A stretch of 64,000 bases of DNA, taken from Chloroflexota bacterium (GTDB taxonomy: Bacteria > Chloroflexota > Anaerolineae > Anaerolineales > Villigracilaceae). The notes under the pieces are model-generated. The model saw only the letters and a program-made list of their open reading frames with translations. It searched no databases and was not told the origin of the DNA. The stretch is taken from contig JACPVF010000017.1 in assembly GCA_016191845.1 (NCBI GenBank), positions 62,001-126,000 on the forward strand. Direction: 5' to 3'. Position numbers and translations under genes: made by a program. Positions 39,397 through 53,307 of this stretch are shown one piece after another (the stretch's first letter is position 1; every line of letters starts with the position of its first letter).

Positions 39397-39461
39397 TTAC
39401 CCAAATGGAGCATATTTCGATGGGGAGGCCGCAAGCAGAGCTTGTGGAGTCCATATCCCTG

Positions 39462-39467
39462 TATAAT
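39462..39467 (+). promoter_or_regulatory. Candidate -10 box close to the glnE start
   Basis: Perfect TATAAT ending six bases before the ATG at 39474. No good -35 box is seen at normal spacing. If used, transcription would start at the ATG itself, giving a leaderless message. Confidence 0.35.
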
Positions 39468-39473
39468 CATGAC

Positions 39474-42400
39474 ATGGATTTTCAACTTCCCGCGAATCTG
39501 TCGGATCCAGCCTCGGCGGCGCGGCGCATTCAACGATTGCAGGATGCACAAGCTCGTGACTTTCCCGTTGTCTTTCAGCATTTATTTTCCGCGCTGGAGT
39601 CAGCCGCCGATGCCGACCGTTCGCTGACCTATTTCGAGCGCTTCACCGAAAATTACGGCGCGGAGTTGTTCCCCGTGCTGGAGAAGGATCCGCGCGTGAT
39701 CGAGATCCTGGTCACGCTGTTTTCCGCCAGCCAGTTCCTGACCGAAATCCTGTTGCGCAATCCCCAGTCGCTGTCGTTGCTGTTGGACCGTCAGACGCTG
39801 ACCCAGCGTAAAACGGTGGAGCAGTTCCAGAGCGAGGCGGAGGCAGCAGTCGCGCGCGCGGGGGACCGAACCGCATTCAACCGTTATCAGCACGGGGAGC
39901 TCTTGCGTATAGGCGTTTGCGACTTCCTCGCGCTGTTCGACTTCTCCACGGTGGTCTCACAACTCTCGCGCATGGCCATCGGCCTGACGCGCGCCTGCCT
40001 GCATTACGCCTCGCGCCAAACAGGAACCTCCACCAGCGGATTCGTCGTGCTGGCGATGGGCAAACTGGGCGGGCGCGAGTTGAATTACAGCTCCGACATC
40101 GACCTGATTTTCATCACAAAAGATGACTCGATCAACTACATCCCACTGGCCCAAAAGCTCATCGACCTGTTGGCTGCCTCCACTTCGCAGGGATTTCTCT
40201 ATCGTGTAGACATCCGCCTGCGCCCTTGGGGCAACGACGGTCCGCTGGTGGCAACAGTGGACGGTTATATGCGCTATATCGAGAAGAACGCGCGGCTGTG
40301 GGAAAAGCAGGCGCTCTTGAAGATGCGTCCCATTGCGGGTGACCTGTCGCTGGGGGAGCAGGTGCGCGAACGGGTGCAGCCGTATATTTTCAGCACACCT
40401 CCTGAAGAAGTGCGCGCAGGCGTGTTCGCGATGAAGCAGCGCACCGAAGAGTTCCTGCAATCGAAGGGACGCGGTTGGGGTGAGGTCAAACTGGGCGTGG
40501 GCTCGATCCGCGATGTGGAGTTCGTGGTGCAATACTTGCAGCTCACCAATATGAGCCAGTATCCGCAGATTCGTACGCGCGCCACGCTCAAGGGGCTGCG
40601 CTTCCTGCGGTCGGCGGGGTTGCTGACCTCGGTCGAGGCGCGGATTCTGTCCGACGGCTATACCTTCCTGCGCACCATCGAGCATTACCTGCAAATGATG
40701 GATTATCGGCAGACCTACACGCTGCCTTCCGAGCCATCGGCCATCGCCTTTCTGGCGCGGCGGCTGGGATTCGAGTCGGGGGAGAAATTCGTCGAGCGTT
40801 ATCAGGAACACTGCAAGGCGATCCGCGAAGTCTATCTGCGCTATGTGGGGAACGAATCCACGCCCGCGGAGCTGCCGGCCGTCAGCCGACACGTCGCGCG
40901 CATGGACGTCTCCTACGCCAAAACCTTCACACCCGAAGAGATCCATCGTCACGCCGAGCTGGCGCAAAAGTTGAGCGAGTCCCTGCCTGCCATCGTGGAC
41001 GCCGTTCCGCTCACGCCAGATACCTGGCGCGTGACCATCGTCGGCTACGATTACCCAGGCGAGTTGTCCATCATCTGCGGCCTGTTCTTCGTCTACGGCT
41101 TCGACATTCTCGACGGCAGCGTGTTCACCTACGAGGCAGCGCAGATCAATCAACCTGTGCCCACGCGAGCACGCAGGGGGCAGGTTTCGACACTCCATTC
41201 AGATACGCGCCAGAAGATCGTGGACGTGTTCACGGTCAAGTCAGTGTTCCTCGAACCACCGGGCAGTACCATCTGGGACACCTATACGCGTGACCTGTTC
41301 GGGTTGCTGGCCCTCTTCCGCGAGGGAAAAAGGCGCGAGGCGCGCGGTCAACTGGCCAGGCGGGTGGGAGCGGCCTTCCAGTCAGTGCCGGGCAGGGTCG
41401 CGCCGCTGCTGCCCATCGATATCGAGATCGACAACGAGACATCTGAACGCTACACCGTGCTGCGCATCGACGCGCCCGACACAGTCGGCTTCCTGTACGA
41501 GTTCACCAACGCGCTGGCTTTCACTCGTACGAACATCGTGCGCGTGAATATCAGCACGGAGGGCAGCCGCGTGCACGACATTTTGTACGTCACTGATGCA
41601 CATGGAATGAGGATCCTCGCGCCCGAGAAGCAGCGCGAACTGCGTGCGGCGGCGGTGCTGATCAAGCATTTCACACACCTGTTGCCGAACTCCCCCAACC
41701 CCGAGTCAGCCCTGCTACATTTCCGCGAATTTTTGGAGCAGCTCTTCAAACGTCCCAATTGGCCCGATGAAATTGCCACGTTCGAAAATACCGATGCGCT
41801 GCGCGCGCTGGCGCGTCTGTTGGGGGTGAGCGATTTTCTGTGGGACGATTTTCTGCGGATGCAATACGCGAATCTCTTCCCCGTAGTGCGCGACATGGAC
41901 GCGCTCGAAACCGCCAAACCGCGCGCGCAACTGGACCTGGAGTTGGCTCAGGCCCTCGACTCGTGCTCCATCGGCGGGTTGGATTATCCCAACTGGCGTG
42001 CCGCGCTCAATGCCTTCAAGGACCGCGAGTTGTTTCGCATCGACATGCGGCACATCCTCGGGCTGACGGGTGAGTTCTGGGATTTTGCCGCCGAGTTGAC
42101 CGAACTGGCCGAGGTGGTGATCACCGCCACCTTCGCGCGCGTCGCTCCCCCTTCCGCACGGATGACGGTCCTCGCGCTGGGCAAATGTGGTGGCCGCGAG
42201 TTGGGCTTTGCCTCGGATATCGAGTTAATGTTCGTGTATGACGAGCAGGCCACGGCTGCACTAAAGGGTGACGATTACGAAAAGTTCGTGCGCGACTTTG
42301 TCTCGACGATCCAGGCGCGGCAGGAGGGCATCTTCCAGATCGACCTGCAACTGCGTCCCTACGGCAAGGCGGGCAGTCTGGCGGTCCCATTGGAGAGTTT

Positions 42401-42992
42401 CCGCCGCTATTATGCGCCGACGGGTCCCGCCTGGGCCTACGAGCGGCAGGCCCTGGTCAAGTTGCGGCCGATCGCGGGTGATCCGACTCTCGGGCAGGAG
42501 GTCTGCACCTTGCGCGACGAATACACCTACTCTGCGGGCGCCTTCGATGTGACCGCCATGCGCGCCATGCGTGAGCGTCAGGTGCGGCATCTGGTCAAGG
42601 GTGGGACCTTCAATGCCAAGTTCAGCCCGGGCGGATTGGTGGACGTCGAGTATTTGATTCAGGGCTTGCAGATCAACCACGGCGTGGAACATCCGTCGGT
42701 GCGGACAACCAATTCGCGCGAAGCGATGTCCGCGCTGCACGAGGCGGACATTCTCTCGAAAGAAGATTACGACAATTTGCGCAGAGCGCATACCTTCCTG
42801 CACTGGCTGATCGACTCGCTGCGCGTGGTGCGCGGCAACTCGAAGGACATCACCGTTCCGCGCTACGGCAGCGACGAGTTCGCCTTCCTCGCGCGACGCC
42901 TGCGCTACGAGAGCGACCTCGACCGCCTGCGCGAGGACCTGGCGCGTTATCCGCACGATGTGATGGAGATCAATCAGAGGTTGTTGGGGTAG
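39474..42992 (+). CDS. glnE: Bifunctional glutamine synthetase adenylyltransferase/deadenylase with central ACT domains
   Basis: About 1172 residues, against roughly 950 in the family. The N-terminal deadenylase half (AMGKLGGRELNYSSDIDLIF, VGSIRDVEFVVQYLQL) and C-terminal adenylylase half (ALGKCGGRELGFASDIELMF, SPGGLVDVEYLIQGLQ) both keep their Asp pairs. Between them, about residues 515-715, are two ACT-like regions (WRVTIVGYDYPGELSIICG and YTVLRIDAPDTVGFLYEFTN), resembling the C-terminal sensor of GlnD. It modifies GlnA, encoded divergently. Start uncertain: 39474 has TATAAT six bases upstream and no Shine-Dalgarno; an ATG at 39405 is also in frame. Confidence 0.92.
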   Translation: MDFQLPANLSDPASAARRIQRLQDAQARDFPVVFQHLFSALESAADADRSLTYFERFTENYGAELFPVLEKDPRVIEILVTLFSASQFLTEILLRNPQSLSLLLDRQTLTQRKTVEQFQSEAEAAVARAGDRTAFNRYQHGELLRIGVCDFLALFDFSTVVSQLSRMAIGLTRACLHYASRQTGTSTSGFVVLAMGKLGGRELNYSSDIDLIFITKDDSINYIPLAQKLIDLLAASTSQGFLYRVDIRLRPWGNDGPLVATVDGYMRYIEKNARLWEKQALLKMRPIAGDLSLGEQVRERVQPYIFSTPPEEVRAGVFAMKQRTEEFLQSKGRGWGEVKLGVGSIRDVEFVVQYLQLTNMSQYPQIRTRATLKGLRFLRSAGLLTSVEARILSDGYTFLRTIEHYLQMMDYRQTYTLPSEPSAIAFLARRLGFESGEKFVERYQEHCKAIREVYLRYVGNESTPAELPAVSRHVARMDVSYAKTFTPEEIHRHAELAQKLSESLPAIVDAVPLTPDTWRVTIVGYDYPGELSIICGLFFVYGFDILDGSVFTYEAAQINQPVPTRARRGQVSTLHSDTRQKIVDVFTVKSVFLEPPGSTIWDTYTRDLFGLLALFREGKRREARGQLARRVGAAFQSVPGRVAPLLPIDIEIDNETSERYTVLRIDAPDTVGFLYEFTNALAFTRTNIVRVNISTEGSRVHDILYVTDAHGMRILAPEKQRELRAAAVLIKHFTHLLPNSPNPESALLHFREFLEQLFKRPNWPDEIATFENTDALRALARLLGVSDFLWDDFLRMQYANLFPVVRDMDALETAKPRAQLDLELAQALDSCSIGGLDYPNWRAALNAFKDRELFRIDMRHILGLTGEFWDFAAELTELAEVVITATFARVAPPSARMTVLALGKCGGRELGFASDIELMFVYDEQATAALKGDDYEKFVRDFVSTIQARQEGIFQIDLQLRPYGKAGSLAVPLESFRRYYAPTGPAWAYERQALVKLRPIAGDPTLGQEVCTLRDEYTYSAGAFDVTAMRAMRERQVRHLVKGGTFNAKFSPGGLVDVEYLIQGLQINHGVEHPSVRTTNSREAMSALHEADILSKEDYDNLRRAHTFLHWLIDSLRVVRGNSKDITVPRYGSDEFAFLARRLRYESDLDRLREDLARYPHDVMEINQRLLG

Positions 42993-43021
42993 GAACCCTT
43001 CCCCCAGTTTTCCCAAAACCA

Positions 43022-43049
43022 TTGACACATTTCTGCTTTCGAGTAGAAT
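43022..43049 (+). promoter_or_regulatory. Sigma70-like promoter of the arginine operon leader
   Basis: TTGACA (43022-43027), 16-base spacer, TAGAAT (43044-43049). The predicted start at 43056-43060 falls on or just before the ATG of the leader peptide, about 215 bases ahead of argG. Confidence 0.75.
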
Positions 43050-43059
43050 ACCGCCCAAT

Positions 43060-43164
43060 ATGTTCAGCCTGTTTGTGCTCCCGCGTACCCGTCGTCCGCA
43101 GCCCACTTCCCAAAGAAGGTCGGGAGTTTCCCGTTTGGATGACGCGAACACAAACGTGCGCTGA
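43060..43164 (+). CDS. Arginine-rich leader peptide of the argG operon
   Basis: 34 codons plus stop, between a strong promoter and an intrinsic terminator. Seven Arg codons: CGT-ACC-CGT-CGT at codons 9-12, AGA-AGG at 19-20, and single ones at 25 and 34. Arg is the end product of the operon it precedes, so ribosome stalling at these codons during Arg shortage is the expected switch. It would be translated from a nearly leaderless message. The AGA-AGG pair also forms the 5' strand of the proposed antiterminator. No match to a known leader is claimed; the call rests on position, length and composition. Confidence 0.7.
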
Positions 43165-43220
43165 CAAGCACACCTAGGTCAACCAAAACAGCCCGCCTTC
43201 TCGGCGGGCTGTTTTTATTT
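43114..43220 (+). promoter_or_regulatory. Transcription attenuator of the argG operon
   Basis: Three competing structures are visible. (1) Terminator: arms 43185-43197 and 43203-43215 (AAAACAGCCCGCC and complement), loop TTCTC, then TTTTTA. (2) Antiterminator: AGAAGG-U-CGGG (43114-43124) can pair with CCCGCCTTCT (43192-43201), ten pairs with one bulged U, which breaks the terminator. (3) A small hairpin CGGGA-GTT-TCCCG (43121-43133) that hides the CGGG part of the antiterminator. A further hairpin GTGC-N8-GCAC (43156-43171) spans the leader stop codon. Confidence 0.7.
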
Positions 43221-43271
43221 ACCCCCCTCGTTCCCCCCAAATGGGGGGAAGAAAAATCCAAAGGAGAACCA

Positions 43272-44543
43272 ATGAACCCGAAACCGAAACCGCAAGTAAA
43301 GAAAGTCGTCCTCGCCTATTCAGGCGGGCTGGACACGTCTGTGATCGTCCCGTGGCTGAAGGAAAACTACGGCTGTGAGGTCGTGTGTTTTTGTGCGAAT
43401 GTGGGTCAGGGTGACGAAGACCTGGCGGGCCTGGAACAGAAGGCCATCAAGAGCGGCGCGAGTCAATTCATCCTTCACGACATGCAGGAAGAATTTGCCA
43501 GTGAGTATCTTTTTCCCATGTTGAAAGCAGGGGCCGTGTATGAACACAAGTATTTATTGGGCACATCAGTAGCCCGTCCTTTAATTGCAAAACATCTCGT
43601 GGATGTCGCTCACGAAACGGACGCTGACGCGATCGCACACGGTGCGACTGGCAAAGGCAACGATCAGGTCCGCTTTGAACTCACCGTCATGGCGCTCGAT
43701 CCGCGCCTCAAGATCATCGCTCCCTGGCGCGAATGGGAGATCCGCTCGCGTGAAGACGCGCTCAATTATGCGGCCAAGCACAACGTGCCCGTGACTGCCA
43801 CCATCAAGTCGATCTACTCGCGCGACTCGAACCTGTGGCATCTCTCGCACGAGGGCGGCCTGCTCGAAGATCCGTGGAATGAACCTGAAGAGGTCATGTA
43901 TCAAATTTCCACCTCGCCCGAGAGTGCGCCTGACGAGCCCGAATACGTCGAGATCGAGTTCGAGAGCGGCAACCCTGTGGCGGTCAACGGCGAGAAGCTC
44001 TCGCCTGCGAAGATCGTGTCGAAGCTCAACGCCATCGGCGGCGCACACGGCATCGGCCGCGTGGACCTGGTCGAGAATCGCCTGGTCGGCATGAAGTCGC
44101 ATGGCGTGTATGAGACACCTGGCGGCACCATCCTGCTGTATGCGCATCGCGAACTCGAGTCGCTCATCCTCGACCGCCAGACCATGAACTTCAAGCAGGT
44201 CGCGGCGGTGAAGTATGCCGAGTTGGCTTACGATGGCCTGTGGTTCACGCCGCTGCGCGAGGCGCTGGATGCCTTTGTCAACTCCACGCAGGGACCTGTC
44301 ACGGGCGTGGTGCGGCTCAAACTCTACAAGGGCAACATCATCAGCGCAGGCCGCACGTCGCCGTTCAGCCTGTATCGCGAAGATTTCGCCACCTTCGGTC
44401 AGGAAGATGTCTACGACCAGAGTCACGCCGAGGGCTTCATCCGCCTGTTCGGACTCAGCATGAAGGTCCGCGCGCTCAACGGTCTGCCCGTCTCGGGCCT
44501 TGACATGCCGAAGCCTGATTATTCGAAGTTCAAGAGAGACTAA
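43272..44543 (+). CDS. argG: Argininosuccinate synthase
   Basis: 423 residues. Condenses citrulline and aspartate with ATP. The N-type ATP loop [18 protein letters not shown], the [13 protein letters not shown] citrulline/aspartate site and the typical C-terminal tetramer region are present. First structural gene after the attenuator; AAAGGAG precedes the ATG. It heads a run of arginine/lysine genes. Confidence 0.97.
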
Positions 44544-44643: not shown

Positions 44644-46008
44644 ATGACCCTCTGGGGTGGACGCTTTTCCACCAAACTCAACGATCAGGCCTGGGATCTG
44701 AATTCCTCGCTGTCTGTTGACCAGCGCATGGCCATTCAGGATGTGGATGGTTCCATCGCCTGGGCCGACGCCATCCACAAGGCGGGCATTCTCTCGGACG
44801 AAGAACACGAGCAGATCGCCCTCGGGCTGGATACCGTCAAAGCGGAGTTTTCCACGGGGCAGTTCGTCTTCGCCCCCGCCGACGAGGATATCCACACGGC
44901 CGTCGAGCGCCGCCTGAGCGAGTTGGTTGGCGCGGCGGCGGGCAAGCTCCACACGGGGCGCAGCCGCAACGATCAGGTCGCCACCGACTTTCGCCTGTGG
45001 ATGCTGGGTGCGATTCCGCAGCTCGATGCCGCGCTCAAGGATTTGCAATCTGCATTGGTGGAACAGGCCGAGGCCGCAGGCGAGATCGTCATGCCGGGTT
45101 ACACCCATCTGCAGCGCGCCCAGCCGATCCTGCTGTCGCACTGGTGGCTGAGTCACTACTGGCCGCTCGACCGCGACCGTGCCCGCCTCAATGACCTGAC
45201 CCCGCGTGTGGCCGTCCTGCCGCTGGGATGCGGCGCGCTGGCGGGCACTCCGCTGAACGTGGACCGCGCCGCTCTTGCCGATGCGCTGCATTTTGCCAAG
45301 CCTGCGCCCAACAGCCTGGATGCCGTCTCGGACCGAGACTTTGCGGCCGAGTTCCTGTTCTCTACCACGCTGATTGGTGTCCACCTCAGCAAGCTGGCCG
45401 AGCAGATTGTGCTCTACACCAGCGCCGAGTTTGGCTTCTTCGAACTCTCGGACGCTTATTCAACGGGTTCGAGTCTGATGCCGCAGAAGAAGAATCCCGA
45501 CGTGTTCGAACTGACGCGCGGCAAGGCGGGCACGTTGCTCGGTCTGCTGACGGGCTTGCTGGCCACGCTCAAAGGTCTACCCTCGACCTACGACAAGGAC
45601 TTGCAGGAAGACAAGGCCGCCGTCTTCGCCGCGTTCGACACGCTGACGATCATGCTGCCTGTCCTGGCGGGCGCGCTGCGCACCATCACCGCCAAGCCCG
45701 AGCGGATGCGTGCTGCCATCGACTCGACCATGATGGCCACCGACCTGGCGGATTACCTCGTGAACAAGGGCATCCCGTTCCGCGAGACGCATGCCATCGC
45801 AGGGAAAGCTGTCCGCGCGGCGCTGGAGAGTCAGCTTGGGCTGGAGCAAATGCCGCTCGAAGCGTATCAGGCTCTCAGTCCCGCCTTTGAAGCGGATGTA
45901 TACCAAGTGTACGACCCGCTGAGTTCCATCCAAAAAAGAAATGCGATTGGCGGCACGAGCCTCCAGTCGGTCAAAAATCAGATTCAAAAAATTAAGGAGA
46001 ATCAATAA
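44644..46008 (+). CDS. argH: Argininosuccinate lyase
   Basis: 454 residues, fumarase/aspartase superfamily. Splits argininosuccinate to arginine and fumarate. Signature GSSLMPQKKNPDVFEL, the TGRSRNDQVATD site and HLQRAQPILLSHW are visible. GGAAACC precedes the ATG. Its stop codon overlaps the lysW start by one base, so lysW is directly coupled to an arginine gene. Confidence 0.97.
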   Translation: MTLWGGRFSTKLNDQAWDLNSSLSVDQRMAIQDVDGSIAWADAIHKAGILSDEEHEQIALGLDTVKAEFSTGQFVFAPADEDIHTAVERRLSELVGAAAGKLHTGRSRNDQVATDFRLWMLGAIPQLDAALKDLQSALVEQAEAAGEIVMPGYTHLQRAQPILLSHWWLSHYWPLDRDRARLNDLTPRVAVLPLGCGALAGTPLNVDRAALADALHFAKPAPNSLDAVSDRDFAAEFLFSTTLIGVHLSKLAEQIVLYTSAEFGFFELSDAYSTGSSLMPQKKNPDVFELTRGKAGTLLGLLTGLLATLKGLPSTYDKDLQEDKAAVFAAFDTLTIMLPVLAGALRTITAKPERMRAAIDSTMMATDLADYLVNKGIPFRETHAIAGKAVRAALESQLGLEQMPLEAYQALSPAFEADVYQVYDPLSSIQKRNAIGGTSLQSVKNQIQKIKENQ

Positions 46009-46178
46009 TGTCTACCGTTGCCTGCCCTGAATGTGAAGCCGAAGTTACGCTGGATGCCGGCACCGAAGTCGGCGAGATCATCGTCTGTTCTGATTGCGGC
46101 GTGGACCTGGAAGTGACCTCGGTCGACCCCGCTGCCGTGCAGCTTGCGCCCATGGAACAGGAAGATTGGGGTGAATAA
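46008..46178 (+). CDS. lysW: Amino-group carrier protein LysW
   Basis: 56 residues. Zinc-ribbon start (CPECEAEV, then CSDCG) and the diagnostic C-terminal EDWGE, whose last Glu is joined to the alpha-amino group of alpha-aminoadipate (lysine route) or glutamate (ornithine/arginine route). The carrier protects and presents the substrate to LysZ, LysY, LysJ and LysK, all encoded downstream. AAGGAG lies at the end of argH. Confidence 0.95.
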
Positions 46179-46222: not shown

Positions 46223-47095
46223 ATGCAACTACGATTAAAGATCGGCGTCCTGTTTTCGCGCGTGCGTGTCGAAGAAAAATGGATCTTCGGCGCGATGGAA
46301 AAGCGCGGCATTGACTATGAGCGGCTCGATGATCGAGCGATCCATTTTGACCTGGATAAGCCTCAGTCCTGGCAGCAATACGACGCGGTGCTTGAACGCA
46401 GCATTAGCTATAACAGCGGATTGTATGCGCTGCGCCTGTTGAACTCATTTGGCGTGCCGACGGTCAACACGGCAGCGGTGGCGGAGGTCTGCGGTGACAA
46501 GCTGATGACCAGCGCCGCGCTGGCGCGAGCGGGTGTCCCTCAACCGCACAACGCGACCGCCTTCACCCCTGAGGCCGCGCTCGAAGCCATCGAAGCCTTT
46601 GGTTACCCCGTGGTGCTCAAGCCCGTTGTCGGTTCATGGGGACGGTTGCTGGCCAAGGTCAATGACCGCGATGCGGCCGAGGCGGTGCTGGAGCACAAGT
46701 CCACGCTGGGTTCGGTACAGCATTCGGTATTTTATATTCAGGAATACATCGACAAGCCTGGACGTGATATCCGCGCCATCGTTATCGGCGACCGCGTGTT
46801 GACCGCCATGTATCGCAACTCAGAGCATTGGATCACCAACACGGCTCGCGGCGGGAGCGGGGAATTGTGTCCCATCACACCCGAGATCGAGGATATTTGT
46901 CTGCGCGCTTCGAAAGCGGTGGGTGGTGGCCTGCTCGGTGTGGATCTGGTCGAGCATCCTGAAAAGGGATTGGTGGTCAATGAGATCAACCATACGATGG
47001 AGTTCCACACCATGCAGCCGTTGAGTGGGATCGACATCGCAGGTGAGATCGTAGAGTACACCATGAGTGTCGCCAGAATGAAAGCGGAAGGGTGA
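46223..47095 (+). CDS. lysX: LysW ligase (LysX, or ArgX acting on glutamate)
   Basis: 290 residues, RimK/ATP-grasp fold. Ligates alpha-aminoadipate or glutamate to the C-terminal Glu of LysW. ATP-grasp features: [37 protein letters not shown], and the metal site [12 protein letters not shown]. Whether it prefers aminoadipate or glutamate is not settled here; operon context favours at least glutamate. ATG preceded by GGAG. Confidence 0.92.
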
Positions 47096-47102
47096 TGTGG
47101 AC

Positions 47103-48146
47103 ATGACTACAACCGTTTCGATCATCGGTGCTTCAGGTTATGGGGGAGGGGAATTGCTGCGCCTGCTGTTGGGTCATCCCAATGTCGAGGTAAAGCAGGT
47201 GACTTCGCGCTCGCATCTGGGCGAGTATGTGTATCAGGTCCATCCGAATCTGCGTAAGCGGACGCAGCTCAAGTTCAGCGACCCTGCCACGCTGGAGCCC
47301 GTGGATATCCTCTTCCTGGCCCAGCCGCACGGACAAGCGCAACACCACATCGAAGAATACGCCAGCCTTGCACCGAAGGTCATCGACCTGGCGGCGGATT
47401 TCCGCCTACGCGATGCGGACTTTTACGAGAAGTGGTACGGCGAAAAACATGCCGCGCCCGAGTGGTTGAGCAAATTCGTGTACGGACTCCCCGAGTTGCA
47501 CCGTGCCGAGATGGCGACTGCCAACTACGTCAGCGGCGTGGGTTGCAATGCGACTGCCAGCAATCTGGCGCTGCTGCCGCTGGTCAAGGCTGATCTGTTG
47601 GATTTATCTTCTCCAATTTTTATTGAGATCAAGGTCGGTTCGTCGGAGGGGGGCGCGGAAGGGAACTCGGGCTCGTTGCACGCGGAGCGCGCCAACGTCA
47701 TCCGCACATTCTCGGCGTTCGGGCATCGTCACACCGCCGAGGTCATCCAGGAAATGGGTGTGAACGCGGAGCGTGTTTCCCTGACGATGACCGCCGTGGA
47801 CCTGGTGCGCGGCGTGTTGGCGACCGCGCATGCCAGGGTCAAGGCTGGTGTGGCGAACAAGGATCTATGGAAGGCTTATCGCACAGTGGCGAACGAGAAT
47901 CCGTTCGTGCGCGTGGTCAAGGAACAGCGTGGAATCTACCGCGTGCCCGAGCCGAAGATCCTGGCTGGCTCGAACTACGCCGACCTCGGCTTCGAGCTGG
48001 ACGAGAGCAACGGTCACATCGTGGCGATGTGCGCCATCGACAATCTCATGAAGGGTGCATCGGGTACCGCTGTGCAATGTATGAACCTGATGATGGGCTG
48101 GGACGAAACGCTCGGGTTGGAGTTCATGGGGTTGCACCCGATTTAA
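47103..48146 (+). CDS. lysY: LysW-gamma-aminoadipyl/glutamyl-phosphate reductase (ArgC-like)
   Basis: 347 residues, N-acetylglutamyl-phosphate reductase family. NADPH site GASGYGGGELLRLL, the catalytic Cys in YVSGVGCNATASNLALLPL, and the closing MKGASGTAVQCMNLMMG are clear. Reduces the LysW-bound acyl phosphate to the semialdehyde. The ATG at 47103 is used; a GTG two codons earlier is possible. Confidence 0.93.
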   Translation: MTTTVSIIGASGYGGGELLRLLLGHPNVEVKQVTSRSHLGEYVYQVHPNLRKRTQLKFSDPATLEPVDILFLAQPHGQAQHHIEEYASLAPKVIDLAADFRLRDADFYEKWYGEKHAAPEWLSKFVYGLPELHRAEMATANYVSGVGCNATASNLALLPLVKADLLDLSSPIFIEIKVGSSEGGAEGNSGSLHAERANVIRTFSAFGHRHTAEVIQEMGVNAERVSLTMTAVDLVRGVLATAHARVKAGVANKDLWKAYRTVANENPFVRVVKEQRGIYRVPEPKILAGSNYADLGFELDESNGHIVAMCAIDNLMKGASGTAVQCMNLMMGWDETLGLEFMGLHPI

Positions 48147-48269: not shown

Positions 48270-49079
48270 ATGGAAATCACAGTTGTCAAACTCGGCGGCA
48301 CCGAGGGTGTGGACTTTTCCGCGATTTGCAAGGATGCCGTGGAGTTGTTGAATCAGGGTAAGAGACTGGTATTCGTGCATGGCGGGTCGGCCGAGGCGAA
48401 CGCGTTGGGCGATGGGCTGGGCACGCCACCCAGGATGATCACCTCACCTTCAGGCTACACCTCGCGTTACACCGACCGCAAGACGCTGGAGATCTTTCTG
48501 ATGGCGGTCAATGGCAAGGTCAACTCGTTGCTGACCGAGCAGTTGCAGATGTTGGGCGTCAATGCCTTTGGCCTGTGCGGACTGGATGGCAGGTTGATAG
48601 AGGCCACGCGCAAGGATTCGATCCAGTCCATCGAGAACGGCAAGCGCAAGATCATCCGCGATGATTACACAGGCAAGATCGAAACGGTCAATGCGGGGTT
48701 GTTAACCATGCTGCTCGATGCAGGCTATCTGCCCGTCATCGCGCCTGTGGCGGTCAGCGAGAAGGGCGAGGCCCTCAACGTGGACGCTGACCGCGCGGCG
48801 GCGATGGTGGCGTCTGCGCTCAAGGCGCAGACACTGCTGCTGCTCACAGCGGTGCCTGGGCTGATGAAAAACTTCCCAGACGAGTCGACGCTCATTCGAC
48901 AGCTGCCGCAGAGTCAGCTTGGGGCGGCGAGCGAAGCGGCACAGGGTCGCATGAAGAAGAAAGTGCTGGGGGCCGAGGAAGCGCTCAAAGGCGGAGTCCA
49001 GCGCGTCATTATCGCGGACGGACGAATCCAGAATCCCATCTCGAATGCTTTATCAGGAAATGGAACTGTGATCCAATGA
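48270..49079 (+). CDS. lysZ: LysW-aminoadipate/glutamate kinase (ArgB-like)
   Basis: 269 residues, amino acid kinase fold. VVKLGGTEG, VHGGSAEANALGDGLG, and VDADRAAAMVASAL are typical of the ArgB/LysZ group. Phosphorylates the side-chain carboxylate of the LysW-bound substrate. GGAG precedes the ATG. Its stop overlaps the lysJ start (ATGA). Confidence 0.93.
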   Translation: MEITVVKLGGTEGVDFSAICKDAVELLNQGKRLVFVHGGSAEANALGDGLGTPPRMITSPSGYTSRYTDRKTLEIFLMAVNGKVNSLLTEQLQMLGVNAFGLCGLDGRLIEATRKDSIQSIENGKRKIIRDDYTGKIETVNAGLLTMLLDAGYLPVIAPVAVSEKGEALNVDADRAAAMVASALKAQTLLLLTAVPGLMKNFPDESTLIRQLPQSQLGAASEAAQGRMKKKVLGAEEALKGGVQRVIIADGRIQNPISNALSGNGTVIQ

Positions 49080-50254
49080 ACACCAAAGAAATTTTAGAGA
49101 TCGAGAATCAACATACCTCGGGCGTGTACGCCAAGCAGGCGCTGACCATCGTGCGAGGACAGGGTGCATCCTTGTTTGATGCGGATGGCGTTGAATACCT
49201 GGACTGTTCGTCGGGTCACGGCGTGGCGAATTTGGGTCATGCGCACCCGAAGGTGGCGGAGGCGCTCTACAAGCAGGCCAACACGCTGATCACGTTGTTC
49301 GAGTCCTTCCCGAATGACCAGCGCGCGATGCTGATGGAAAAGATCACATCGCTGGTGCCTGGCCTGGATCGCGTCTTCTTCTGCAACTCGGGTACCGAGG
49401 CCGTGGAAGCGTCGTTCAAGTTTGCGCGCATCTCCACGGGACGCAAGAACATCATCGCGGCCATGCGCGCCTTCCACGGGCGGACCTTTGGCTCGCTCTC
49501 AGCGACGTTCAACAAAAAGTATCGCGAAGGGTTCGAGCCGCTGCTGCCTGGCGTTTCGCATGTGGCCTATAACAACATCGAGGCGTTGGAGAAGACTGTC
49601 AACGAAGAGACGGCTGCCGTGATCCTCGAAGTGGTGCAGGGCGAGGGCGGCGTGTATCCCGCCTCGCAGGAATATATCCAGGCGGCGCGGCGGATCTGTG
49701 ACGAGCGCGGCGCGCTGCTCATCATCGACGAGATCCAGACGGGCTTCGGCCGCACGGGACGGCTGTTCGCCATTCAGCACTTCGGCGTGACCCCCGACCT
49801 GCTGACCTGTGCCAAGTCCCTGGCGGGCGGCGTGCCGATGGGCGCCGTGCTGATCGGACGCCACGTTCAGAATCTGACCCCAGGCGTGCACGGCTCGACC
49901 TTTGGCGGGAATCCGCTTTCGTGTGCGGCGGCCAATGCGGCGCTGGACATCATCCTCAGCGAGGACTTGCCGCGCCAGGCCGAGGTCAAAGGCGCGTATT
50001 TGATGGATCGCCTGAAGCGCATCCAGTCGCCGAATATCCGCGAAGTGCGTGGACTGGGATTAATGATCGGCATCGAGATGAAGCAGAAGGTCGCGCTGTA
50101 TCTCAAGGCGCTGCAAGAACGTCACATCATCGCTTTGAATGCGGGCATGACCGTCATCCGCCTGCTGCCGCCGTTGGTCATCACCTATGAGCAGCTCGAT
50201 CATTTGGTGGATGTTCTAAGCAAAGTCCTAATCGCTGAGCAAAAAGATGAGTGA
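49076..50254 (+). CDS. lysJ: LysW-semialdehyde aminotransferase (ArgD-like)
   Basis: 392 residues, class III PLP aminotransferase. [17 protein letters not shown], the [19 protein letters not shown] region and the PLP Lys in [14 protein letters not shown] are intact. Transfers an amino group from glutamate to the LysW-bound semialdehyde. Overlaps lysZ by four and lysK by eight bases. Confidence 0.93.
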
Positions 50255-51299
50255 TACTTTAATCGGCCTTGTCTCGCAGTACAGTCCATCTGGCCAGGAA
50301 CGCGGCGCGGTGGATTGGCTGGTAGCGCGGATGAAGTCCCTTGGCTATGACGACGCGTTCGTGGATAACGCAGGCAACGCTGTGGGTGTGATGGGGCAGG
50401 GACCGAAACAGGTAATCCTGCTGGGTCATATCGACACGGTGCCTGGGGAGATTTCCGTTGAATTTGTAGGGGCGACGGGTCCGTCGCCCGTGTTATATGG
50501 TCGTGGCTCGGTGGATGCCAAGGGTCCGCTGGCATGTTTTGCAGATGCGGTGGCGCAGGTCGGCGCGAAGGGGGGGTGGCAGTTCGTGGTCATCGGCGCG
50601 ATCGAGGAGGAGCGCGACTCGGATGGGGCGCGCTTTGTAGCGACCCAATACAAGCCAGACTTTGCCATCATCGGTGAGCCCAATCAGTGGGATCGTGTGG
50701 CCCTGGGATACAAAGGCAGTGCCTGGGCCAATGTGACCGTCAAACGCGGACAGGTCCATTCGGCCAGCGGCAAACAGACGGCCTGTGAAGCGGTGGTGGA
50801 GCTCTGGCAGGCAGTGAAGTCCTTTACGGATTCCTACAACGCCGATAAGCCGCGCGCTTTCGACCAGATCCTGCCGACGTTGCGCGGCATGGAGTCTGGC
50901 ATGGATGAAAACGAACAATGGGCTACGCTGAAGATCGGTGCCCGTTTGCCTGTGGAATGTCCGCCGCAAGATTGGTATGCCAAATTGAATGAACTCGCGG
51001 GCGATGCAAAGGTGCAGGCGGGTGGATACGCCATCCCTGCCTGGGCGTGCGAGAAGAACACCCCGCTGGTACGCGCCTTCTTAAACGGGATCCGCTCCCA
51101 GGGCGGAGAGCCGCGCTTCGTCTACAAAACGGGAACCGCCGACTTGAACATCGTCGCGCCTGTGTGGCAATGTCCCGCCGTAGTGTATGGTCCAGGCGAC
51201 TCGGCGATGGATCACACGCCCAATGAGCATATCGACCTGAACGATTATCGTAAGGCCGTGGATGTGTTGAGTGCGGCATTGTCGAAATTGACCGCTTAA
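50247..51299 (+). CDS. lysK: LysW-lysine/ornithine hydrolase
   Basis: 350 residues, M20 metallopeptidase family. Releases lysine or ornithine from LysW. Metal-binding motifs LLGHIDTVPG, YGRGSVDAKGPLACFAD, GAIEEERDSDGA and IIGEPNQWD are present. Residues about 74-82, just before the second metal motif, are encoded by a partly decayed GTAGGGGC palindrome (50466-50492), which adds a few residues without breaking the frame. Last gene of the arginine/lysine run; a separate promoter follows. Confidence 0.93.
   Translation: MSDTLIGLVSQYSPSGQERGAVDWLVARMKSLGYDDAFVDNAGNAVGVMGQGPKQVILLGHIDTVPGEISVEFVGATGPSPVLYGRGSVDAKGPLACFADAVAQVGAKGGWQFVVIGAIEEERDSDGARFVATQYKPDFAIIGEPNQWDRVALGYKGSAWANVTVKRGQVHSASGKQTACEAVVELWQAVKSFTDSYNADKPRAFDQILPTLRGMESGMDENEQWATLKIGARLPVECPPQDWYAKLNELAGDAKVQAGGYAIPAWACEKNTPLVRAFLNGIRSQGGEPRFVYKTGTADLNIVAPVWQCPAVVYGPGDSAMDHTPNEHIDLNDYRKAVDVLSAALSKLTA
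50466..50492. repeat. GTAGGGGC-family palindrome inside lysK
   Basis: GTAGGGGCGACGG followed by CCGTCGCCCGTG: the inner arms pair perfectly, and the outer end has decayed from CCCTAC to CGTG. In frame within lysK. Confidence 0.6.
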
Positions 51300-51406: not shown

Positions 51407-51511
51407 ATGAACACAATTTTCACCCTCTCCCTTATTGTCGTCCTTCTTGCGGTCCTTATTATTAAGGATCTATTTTTGGTTAGGATGGCAACGGTGAGAG
51501 TGCAAAAGTAA
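51407..51511 (+). CDS. Branched-chain amino acid leader peptide of the ilvD operon
   Basis: 34 codons plus stop. Seventeen residues are Ile, Leu or Val, with the run [11 protein letters not shown] at positions 9-19. It lies between a strong promoter and an intrinsic terminator, ahead of ilvD. Composition and position match leader peptides of classical ilv/leu attenuators; ribosomes would stall when charged Ile, Leu or Val tRNA runs short. No Shine-Dalgarno is seen. It has the same codon count as the argG leader. Confidence 0.8.
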
Positions 51512-51564
51512 GCACACACCAAGTAGGAACGAAGAGCCGCCCTAACCACGGGCGGCTCTTTTTG
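51477..51564 (+). promoter_or_regulatory. Transcription attenuator of the ilv-leu operon
   Basis: Terminator: perfect 11-base arms (AAGAGCCGCCC at 51532-51542 and complement 51550-51560), loop TAACCAC, then TTTTT. Candidate antiterminator: TGGTTAGG (51477-51484, inside the leader gene) pairs perfectly with CCTAACCA (51541-51548), taking the end of the left arm and the loop; GGC (51487-51489) can add three pairs with GCC (51536-51538). Hairpin GTGC-N8-GCAC (51500-51515) spans the leader stop codon. Confidence 0.72.
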
Positions 51565-51627: not shown

Positions 51628-53307
51628 ATGCGTTCAGATACTGTCAAGAAAGGGTACGACAAAGCACCACACCGCGCGTTACTGCGCGCCACGGGGTTGC
51701 GGGATGATGATTTCGAGAAGCCGTTCGTTGCAATCGTCAATTCTTATGTGGATGTTGTGCCCGGTCATGTTCATTTGCAAGAATTCGGCAAGCTGGTAAA
51801 GGATGCTGTGCGCGCGGCGGGTGGTGTGCCGTTCGAGTTCAACACCATCGGCGTGGATGATGGCATCGCGATGGGCCACATGGGCATGAAGTATTCGCTG
51901 CCGTCGCGCGAGTTGATCGCCGACTGCGTGGAGACCATGATCGAGGCCCATCGTTTCGACGCGATGGTCTGCATCCCCAACTGCGACAAGATCGTACCTG
52001 GGATGTTGCTGGCTGCCATGCGTGTCAACATCCCGACCATCTTCGTCTCGGGTGGACCGATGGCAGCGGGTCGCACACCTGAAGGCGAGGCCATTGACCT
52101 GATCTCGGTGTTCGAAGGCGTGGGGGCTTTCTCTGCGGGGAAGATCGATGAGAAGCGTTTGTCTGTTCTGGAAAGATTTGCCTGTCCATCTTGCGGCTCG
52201 TGCTCGGGCATGTTCACGGCCAACTCGATGAACTGTCTGATGGAAGCCATCGGGCTGGCACTGCCGTACAACGGGTCGGCGTTAGCGAAGACTCCCGAAC
52301 GCGAGGACCTGGCGAAGCGTGCCGCGGCGCAGGTCATGACCTTGATCGAACGCGACCTCAAGCCGCGCGACATCGTGACCGCCGAAGCCATCGACGACGC
52401 CTTCGCTCTGGACATGGCGATGGGCGGCTCGTCGAACACGGTGCTGCACACGCTGGCGCTAGCCAACGAAGCGGGCGTGGACTATCCGCTGAGTCGTATC
52501 AACGCCGTGGCTGATAAGGTGCCGCACATCTGCAAGGTTTCGCCTGCGGGCAAGTGGCACATGGAAGATGTCCACCGCGCGGGCGGCATCCCTGCCATTT
52601 TGAACGAAGTTCAGCGTGGGACGGGTATGTTGCACATGGACCGTCCGACGGTCAGCGGCACGACGCTGGGGGAATCGATTCAAGGTTGTGAGATCCAGGA
52701 TGACGAAGTGATTCGTCCCTATGAAAATGCACATTCCAAGCGTGGCGGTCTGTCGATCCTTTTTGGTAATCTCGCCCCCAACGGCGCGGTGGTCAAGGTC
52801 GGCGGCGTGAGCGCAGCCATGATGAAGTTCAGCGGACCCGCGCGCATCTACGAGTCGCAGGATGCGGCGCTGGCGGGAATCCTGGCCAACGAGGTCAAGG
52901 CGGGGGACGTGGTCGTCGTCCGCTACGAAGGACCGAAGGGCGGGCCTGGGATGCAGGAGATGCTCTCGCCGACCTCTGCCATCATGGGACAGGGTCTGGG
53001 CGACAAGGTGGCGCTGATCACCGACGGCCGTTTCAGCGGCGGGACGCGCGGCGCCTGCATTGGTCACGTCTCGCCTGAGGCGGCGGCGGGCGGCCCGATC
53101 GCGGCGCTCCAGCCTGGGGATGTGATCGACATCGATTTAACGGAACGCAGGCTCGAGGTCCGCTTGAGCGCGGAGGAGATCGAGAGTCGCATCGCGGCGC
53201 TGCCTCCGTTCCAATCCAATGTGAAGAGCAAGTGGCTGAAGCGTTACTCGCATTTCGTGACCAGCGCAGATACGGGCGCAGTGTTGTCAACTGACGGTGG
53301 ACGGTAG
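51628..53307 (+). CDS. ilvD: Dihydroxyacid dehydratase
   Basis: 559 residues. Converts dihydroxy-isovalerate and -methylvalerate to the 2-keto acids. Iron-sulfur cluster Cys are in [11 protein letters not shown] and [31 protein letters not shown] and the C-terminal [11 protein letters not shown] are intact. The start giving [22 protein letters not shown] has AAAGGAG upstream; in-frame codons before it run into the terminator. The last codons and stop lie in a repeat. Confidence 0.96.

Follow-up and report, generated by a model that had tools for sequence, protein, structure and literature searches.

The DNA analysed here, a stretch of 64,000 nucleotides (hereafter the window), carries on its forward strand a run of arginine genes that opens with argG, encoding argininosuccinate synthase (43272..44543; 627 bits against a cut-off of 334) and preceded by a Shine-Dalgarno-like AAAGGAG at 43260. 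It continues with argH, encoding argininosuccinate lyase (44644..46008; TIGR00838, 571 bits), lysW, encoding an ArgW-type carrier (46008..46178; TIGR01206), lysX/argX (46223..47095; TIGR02144), argC/lysY (47097..48146; TIGR01850), and genes for an argB/lysZ-type kinase (48270..49079; NF010659), an argD/lysJ-type transaminase (49076..50254; TIGR00707) and an argE/lysK-type hydrolase (50247..51299; NF003367), all scoring over the model cut-offs. The run from argG through the argE/lysK gene is presumably one transcript. Upstream of argG, positions 39405-42992 encode a GlnE-type protein of 1195 residues, in which two GlnE parts flank an ACT/GlnD-like stretch (about residues 490-750); this arrangement looks unusual.

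The region in front of argG, the first gene under its putative control, has a compact layout, also on the forward strand. A sequence scan places a near-consensus promoter at 43022..43049 (TTGACA at 43022-43027 and TAGAAT at 43044-43049, with a spacer of 16 nt), the sole promoter-like site within 42500-43500, where shuffles give 0.1. Ten nucleotides behind the -10 box TAGAAT, the ATG at 43060 opens a leader frame with a predicted leaderless start (43060..43164), which encodes 34 residues, seven of them Arg, and ends with TGA at 43162-43164; codons 9, 11 and 12 are the Arg codons of the motif CGT-ACC-CGT-CGT (43084..43095). Between this frame and argG lies a predicted and covarying intrinsic terminator, AACAGCCCGCC-TTCTC-GGCGGGCTGTT followed by a U run (43187..43216; predicted -21.7 kcal/mol). 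It was not listed by a simple terminator scan of the region; the predicted fold shows it. As a whole, the leader folds better than its shuffled versions (0 of 200 as good, z -4.69). A first-pass annotation had named the promoter, frame, Arg codons, terminator and argG, though not the probable leaderless start or the second putative attenuator described below, and a check of the sequence found each of the named pieces in place: the TTGACA-N16-TAGAAT promoter directly before the 34-residue, seven-Arg frame occupies 43022-43164, and the order of intrinsic terminator, then argG, is borne out by the fold and by the profile score of argG.

A scan of both window strands for a promoter, a frame of 8-60 codons and a terminator, blind to the amino acids encoded, returned two places in total, the argG leader and an Ile/Leu/Val leader before ilvD, and each of the two frames is rich in codons matching the product of its operon. 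The second putative attenuator (forward strand) comprises an Ile/Leu/Val-rich 34-residue leader (51407..51511) and a terminator (51532-51563), and is followed by ilvD, which starts at 51628 and matches its profile over the cut-off. By eye, ilvB, ilvH, ilvC and leuA-like genes follow downstream, and GGTTAGG in the ilvD leader can pair with CCTAACC of its terminator.

Of 152 same-family genomes, 74 contain DNA matches to the argG leader region, short pieces counted. We collected argG loci from the best 80 contigs of a longer match list and from the same-family genomes, a sample that leans to close relatives; removal of own-genome copies and of regions identical in their last 200 nt left 93 argG upstream regions, the window included. 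A frame with at least three Arg in six codons together with a terminator was present in 72 of these 93 regions (from best matches and family), 60 of them with a promoter. In the reverse complements of the same regions, this combination was found 12 times, once with a promoter, and in five dinucleotide-shuffle sets 2-4 times, never with a promoter. When twelve other residues were tried as the cluster, with the promoter required, the commonest was Pro, with 11 found. The Arg-cluster test failed in 21 of the 93 regions, including one that is too short (74 nt) and two (L091 and L096) with two Arg plus Lys; the remaining ones contain, by eye, coding sequence or nothing similar. A terminator kept without the frame or its Arg codons, the pattern named by the first-pass annotation as speaking against it, is thus absent in most of the relatives examined, 72 of 93 keeping both.

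Conservation of the frame is also seen when leaders are selected without regard to Arg. Starts chosen by promoter and ATG alone, which worked for 63 of the 93 regions, have Arg at codons 9, 11 and 12 in 54, 55 and 55 of 63 leaders, respectively. A stop occurs once within the first 16 codons of these leaders; the two alternative frames have 30 and 18, and 11 of those 30 overlap the ATG itself. In 49 leaders anchored on the Arg codons, variation is greatest at the third position for every codon from 6 to 13, but not for codons 3, 4, 5 and 16. Arg codons 9, 11 and 12 are CGT in 135 of 147 cases in these 49 leaders, and in the 11 coding genes of the window CGT makes up 64 of 311 Arg codons. A helix built of Arg codons (the outer helix described below) may explain this preference in codons 11 and 12; it does not account for codon 9, which is CGT in 40 of the 49 leaders. 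A ribosome-mediated attenuator is expected to have a short frame in which codons for the amino acid made by the operon are clustered; such a frame is conserved here and predicted to be translated. The AGA-AGG pair had been counted among the sensing codons in the first-pass annotation; we rejected this assignment, because the reading frame shifts there and relatives read the same stretch in other frames. That stretch is segment 2 of the antiterminator. According to the alignments, the sensing codons are instead the CGT triplets 9, 11 and 12.

Past the Arg run, frame and length vary (17-36 residues, with differing C-termini). This counts against the idea that the frame is a functional microprotein gene followed by a constitutive terminator that merely sets the level of argG, as does the match between segment 2 and its own terminator; the conservation of some residues around the Arg run is what such a gene might show, and we regard this explanation as extremely improbable. 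The same residues bear on another alternative, an arginine-sensing arrest peptide, in which nascent FALPRTRRP would bind free arginine or otherwise stall the ribosome; the fungal arginine attenuator peptide is a precedent for arrest of this kind. In the 49 leaders, F, A, L and P before the Arg run and P after it are the commonest residues, with mostly free third positions, and in near relatives F-A-L-P is kept beyond what codon sensing would need. However, the residues flanking the Arg run are mostly lost in distant leaders, which keep mainly the run itself (e.g., MNLNLVRRPRRKYL, MNGKVVRARRPRRPKR and MFSSADPRSRRRSRR), the Pro codon after the run belongs to the outer helix, and sister leaders of other operons (see below) carry Lys, His, Ile/Leu/Val or aromatic codons, which fits codon sensing. 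We consider an arrest peptide very improbable.

For the analysis of RNA structure, 7 of the 72 leaders were judged mis-called and dropped, leaving 65 (64 distinct), 50 of which make up alignment A1. Segment 2 (AGAAGGTCGGG, 43114..43124) is common to two mutually exclusive predicted structures. In the protector, it pairs with segment 1 (CCCACTTC, 43102..43109; 94.6% and 90.0% of cells paired), and an outer arm built of Arg codons (CGTCGTCC, 43090..43097) pairs with 43137-43144 (85.2% of cells); the conserved protector is thus CCCACTTC/GAAGGTCGGG plus the outer helix CGTCGTCC/GGATGACG. In the antiterminator, segment 2 pairs with segment 3 (CCCGCCTTCT, 43192..43201), which comprises part of the 5' arm of the terminator and its loop. 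The ten pairs proposed between AGAAGG-U-CGGG and CCCGCCTTCT in the first-pass annotation form as claimed (6+4 pairs, one bulge). Its further suggestion that a CGGGA/TCCCG hairpin (43121..43133) hides the same CGGG holds for the predicted fold of the window but not as a conserved part of the leader, in which role we rejected it: of 65 leaders, only that of the window has the hairpin. In the lowest-energy fold of the window, CGGG sits in this local CGGGA/UCCCG hairpin, only CUUC/GAAG of the 1:2 helix forms, and the outer helix appears. The 3' arm of the outer protector lies within TTTGGATGACG (43134..43144), which could also extend the antiterminator by pairing with a possible upstream arm of segment 3 (GTCAACCAAA, 43178..43187). 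This TTTGGATGAC/GTCAACCAAA pairing, present in 66.1% of cells with two-sided changes no more frequent than in shuffles (286 of 500), may be such an extension.

Across alignment A1 (50 leaders), segments 2 and 3 are paired in 93.1% of cells, and sliding the segment 3 partner lowers this value to 42-74%; none of 500 shuffles, a control that leaves relatedness among the leaders in place, was as high. Three 2:3 pairs change on both sides (shuffles 1.0; 4 of 500 as high), and the covariation score of 2:3 is reached by 20 of 500 shuffles. The 1:2, outer and 3:4 helices are jointly paired in 91.9% of cells (0 of 500 shuffles). In the 3:4 terminator, 96.5% of cells are paired and 7 of 11 pairs change on both sides; in the number of two-sided-change pairs, some slid structures equal or exceed the real one (up to 12 vs 7). 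The 1:2 and outer helices, each taken on its own pairings, show one-sided changes only; in the consensus fold, three sequences have both partners of one 1:2 pair changed. We also exchanged partners among 29 hand-picked divergent leaders of the 64. The cognate 2:3 duplex has a mean of -17.1 kcal/mol vs -14.0 kcal/mol for swapped partners, and none of 20000 permutations was as good; nevertheless, the cognate partner takes first place in only 4 of the 29, and five leaders (L052, L055, L057, L058 and L060) pair more weakly with it than with foreign partners on average. Cognate matching is clear in GTTCGGGG/CCCCGAAC of L107 and TTGGAAGGTTG/CAACCTTCCAA of L059. Apart from the five exceptions of the swap test, the antiterminator is exclusive with the terminator, conserved and changing in step; the protector that would hold segment 2 when no ribosome stalls is conserved, nearly all of its changes being one-sided. 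The first-pass annotation had advised an alignment of relatives, in which Arg codons should be conserved and terminator/antiterminator pairs should covary; both emerged.

The spacing of these elements is constrained. From the last Arg codon to segment 2, the median distance is 18 nt (10th-90th percentile 15.4-20; 65 leaders), and the stop codon follows segment 2 in 58 of 65 leaders, falls inside it in 5 and precedes it in 2. We folded the RNA as far as segment 3, with part of it masked by a ribosome, and calculated how probable upstream pairing of segment 3 is. A ribosome placed on the last Arg codon, with all RNA behind it left out of the fold, gives a mean of 0.84 in this model, and 65 of 65 leaders exceed 0.5; for naked RNA the mean is 0.31 (16 of 65 above 0.5), and with the ribosome eight codons past the Arg run it is 0.16 (1 of 65). 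A mask limited to the footprint gives 0.79 at the last Arg codon (62 of 65); moved codon by codon, it yields a plateau of 0.71-0.80 from -4 to +3, followed by 0.42 at +4 and 0.27 at +5. The Arg codons fall inside this plateau; in the model, they are placed so that a stalled ribosome would free segment 2. The value for a ribosome at the stop codon (mean 0.44; 29 of 65 above 0.5; 0.56 for the window) is the weak point of the model. Since modelled antitermination there is 0.44, shut-off would have to rely on passing ribosomes or on refolding of the protector after release.

How the leader frame would be entered is suggested by its upstream end. Promoter and ATG are present in 63 of the 93 argG upstream regions, and 47 of 65 leaders have 10 nt between the -10 box and the ATG (in 6, no box was found). 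A Shine-Dalgarno-like motif precedes the leader ATG in 0 of 65 leaders, and argG itself in 52 of 65. Given this spacing and the absence of Shine-Dalgarno motifs before the 65 leader starts, translation of the leader peptide is probably leaderless, and transcription would start at about 43056-43060.

Taken together, we think it very likely that the region in front of argG acts as a ribosome-mediated transcription attenuator responding to the level of charged arginyl-tRNA. Transcription would start at about 43056-43060, and a ribosome would begin on an almost leaderless AUG. When Arg-tRNA is scarce, it would stall at CGU codons 9, 11 or 12, cover segment 1 and break the Arg-codon outer helix, leaving segment 2 (AGAAGGUCGGG) free once segment 3 (CCCGCCUUCU) is made; the 2:3 antiterminator would form, the terminator would be blocked, and argG-argH and the LysW-type arginine genes would be transcribed. 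When Arg-tRNA is plentiful, the ribosome would run over segment 2, whereas without translation the protector would hold it; in both cases 3:4 would form and transcription would stop before argG. The promoter, start, frame, Arg codons and spacing are conserved, the pairings are exclusive, and no ArgR is recognisable; translation of the leader, stalling and the response to arginine are what we infer from them. Ribosome-dependent control by arginine through competing structures, as proposed in the first-pass annotation, is thus supported by frame, Arg codons, pairings and model, as a prediction at the RNA level.

A third alternative takes the frame as incidental and has a protein or small molecule act on the RNA or DNA, as in a T-box, a riboswitch or control by an ArgR-like protein. 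The RNA is highly structured (z -4.69, as given above), and its protector and antiterminator would by themselves form a switch. Three results speak against this: the Arg codons and open frame are more conserved than the helices require, an Rfam scan of the window gave no family at gathering score, on which ground we rejected a T-box or other known Rfam RNA, and none of 152 family genomes has a match to the Arg repressor model PF01316 above its cut-off. The last result, obtained with PF01316 alone, included one weak match (G077) and none in the genome of the window; the same model was over cut-off in 8 of 14 control genomes and in 39 of 201 genomes of the phylum. All 41 phylum genomes with a PF01316 match at E 0.001 are labelled as outside the class, whose share of the sample is not given. 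We rejected ArgR as the regulator for the family Villigracilaceae, and find the incidental-frame explanation highly improbable. In a T-box, uncharged tRNA binds the RNA directly and no leader peptide is involved. The argG leader would share RNA-level control of arginine genes with arginine T-boxes and differs in having a peptide frame and no Rfam match. Arginine T-boxes are mentioned in the part of PMC1262725 used here.

The spread of the attenuator was assessed with R1, a covariance model of the argG leader. At E 0.01 or better, R1 matched 133 of 301 genomes of the order, representing 61 of 113 genera, weak matches including sister leaders and bare terminators. Across the phylum at E 0.001, it matched 14 of 301 genomes, all in the same class (the genome of the window, 10 of the same family, 2 of the same order and 1 of the same class, the last three weakly), a number that does not bound the spread outside the class, because R1 favours near relatives and strict filters were applied. 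Run on the window's own genome, R1 picked up the leaders of argG and ilvD (the latter at E 3.6e-6) plus 14 weak matches. Compared with reference proteins, 40 further fetched matches precede argG in 16 cases, carA in 7, lysW-lysX in 4, a homocitrate-synthase-like gene in 2, and ilvD or a relative in 2; 9 precede none of the references. One strong second copy of the argG-type leader, with R-T-R-H replacing R-T-R-R (L208, G151:C150:2809-2967), has no argG, carA, lysW-lysX, ilvD, hisG or homocitrate-synthase-like gene behind it by this comparison, and is perhaps a displaced or decaying copy. A match in G052:C25 (L123) was rejected as a leader, being merely a similar terminator.

Leaders of other operons carry codons of their own product. 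Arg leaders precede carA in L120, L201, L204-L207, L209 and L216, more weakly in L207 and L216. Before lysW-lysX, an Arg run is clear in L203 and L210 and weaker in L221 (two Arg), and L217 has a mixture of Lys and Arg. Lys-codon leaders, mostly with KRKP, precede a homocitrate/isopropylmalate synthase-like gene in L112-L118, L122, L225 and L227; the scanned fragment of this gene is under every cut-off. His leaders precede hisG in L119 and L121, and in the genome of the window a His leader, MRNQMHPRHHANTLLPGRAA, with a terminator precedes hisD (L154 343-520, G000:C13:153142). Also in this genome, a Tyr/Phe/Trp-rich leader, MNLSHRYYFAWYFYGFQKSVAVGGA, containing YYFAWYFYGF and followed by a terminator, precedes aroH-aroF (L155 360-500, G000:C13:171259). 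Ile/Leu/Val leaders precede ilvD in L211 and in the window, and a relative of ilvD in L228. A short frame containing KHHHP before a lipoprotein-like gene, perhaps part of a transporter, was noticed in L233 (G305:C21:12813) and is a possible His leader.

The trp and his attenuators of enteric bacteria combine tandem regulatory codons in a leader peptide with alternative 1:2, 2:3 and 3:4 helices. The argG leader resembles them in its leader peptide with regulatory codons, its protector (1:2), its antiterminator (2:3) and its terminator (3:4); it differs in that it would respond to arginine rather than Trp or His, is probably leaderless, has an outer protector helix made of Arg codons, and belongs to Chloroflexota. 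The enteric his attenuator is also described in the part of PMC9413887 used here. A leaderless or nearly leaderless start, as predicted for the argG leader, is known from the ilvBNC attenuator of Corynebacterium glutamicum, where the start codon lies one nucleotide from the transcription start and there is no ribosome binding site; by the portion of that paper used here, this attenuator also has three competing hairpins, but it concerns branched-chain amino acids and Actinobacteria (PMC11857589). The leader peptides leuL, trpL, ilvL, thrL and metL of Streptomyces lividans, located before amino-acid genes, are leaderless too; the list, in the part of the paper drawn on here, covers Leu, Trp, Ala, Ile, Met and Thr with no Arg or Lys, and several of these leaders, unlike the argG leader, are without a clear terminator (PMC8079986). 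The nearest arginine case found is orf34 of Salmonella speF, a short upstream frame in which pausing at two consecutive Arg codons switches the RNA structure; however, according to the sections of the source used here, speF controls polyamine (putrescine) synthesis, and does so via Rho and RNase G, whereas the argG leader has an intrinsic terminator and precedes arginine genes (PMC6386406).

Among the matches listed in the open-access literature, we found no ribosome-mediated arginine attenuator of arginine genes, a 2010 survey by Lopatovskaya and others being a place that could hold cases, and no attenuator study in Chloroflexi; the remark in the first-pass annotation that arginine attenuation is unfamiliar from Chloroflexota agrees with this literature, in which no earlier report turned up. 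We think it probable that Anaerolineales control arginine synthesis without ArgR, through leaderless Arg-codon attenuators before argG, carA and lysW-lysX that belong to a wider Arg/Lys/His/Ile-Leu-Val/aromatic set, several of them built on one promoter-start module, and that arginine and lysine join, as new specificities, the amino acids whose synthesis bacteria regulate by ribosome-mediated attenuation. This would extend codon-sensing attenuation to arginine, perhaps also to lysine given the sister leaders (ribosome-mediated lysine attenuation, to which the Lys-codon leaders point, would be unusual as well), and to Chloroflexota, and it offers a sequence-based answer to how arginine synthesis could be controlled in a large, mostly uncultured group with no recognisable ArgR. 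The codons of a leader may also point to the product of a pathway that is otherwise ambiguous: an Arg leader immediately in front of lysW-lysX, as is clear for L203 and L210, suggests that the LysW pathway of these species makes arginine. The three-helix leader is also present in a named strain, Longilinea arvoryzae KOME-1 (MYRHLVMPRSRRPHPTSPRKGWEFWLWMSA, L057), where it is directly testable.

Two further observations were made in passing. In the window's own genome, a pattern of promoter plus ATG after 5-11 nt matches 56 times, compared with 24 times for the reversed control pattern. We inspected 48 of the 56 matches: apart from the one in the window, two resemble leaders (L154 and L155), and of the 47 outside the window, 19 open frames of at least 90 codons, so leaderless genes may be common in this genome. 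Between the terminator and argG, the window has an inverted repeat, CCCCCC-AAAT-GGGGGG (43222-43249). The same gap holds this repeat with small changes in L015 and L092, and a different inverted repeat, AAACCTGACAGGTTT, in L008, L021 and L033, as if dispersed repeats often insert there.
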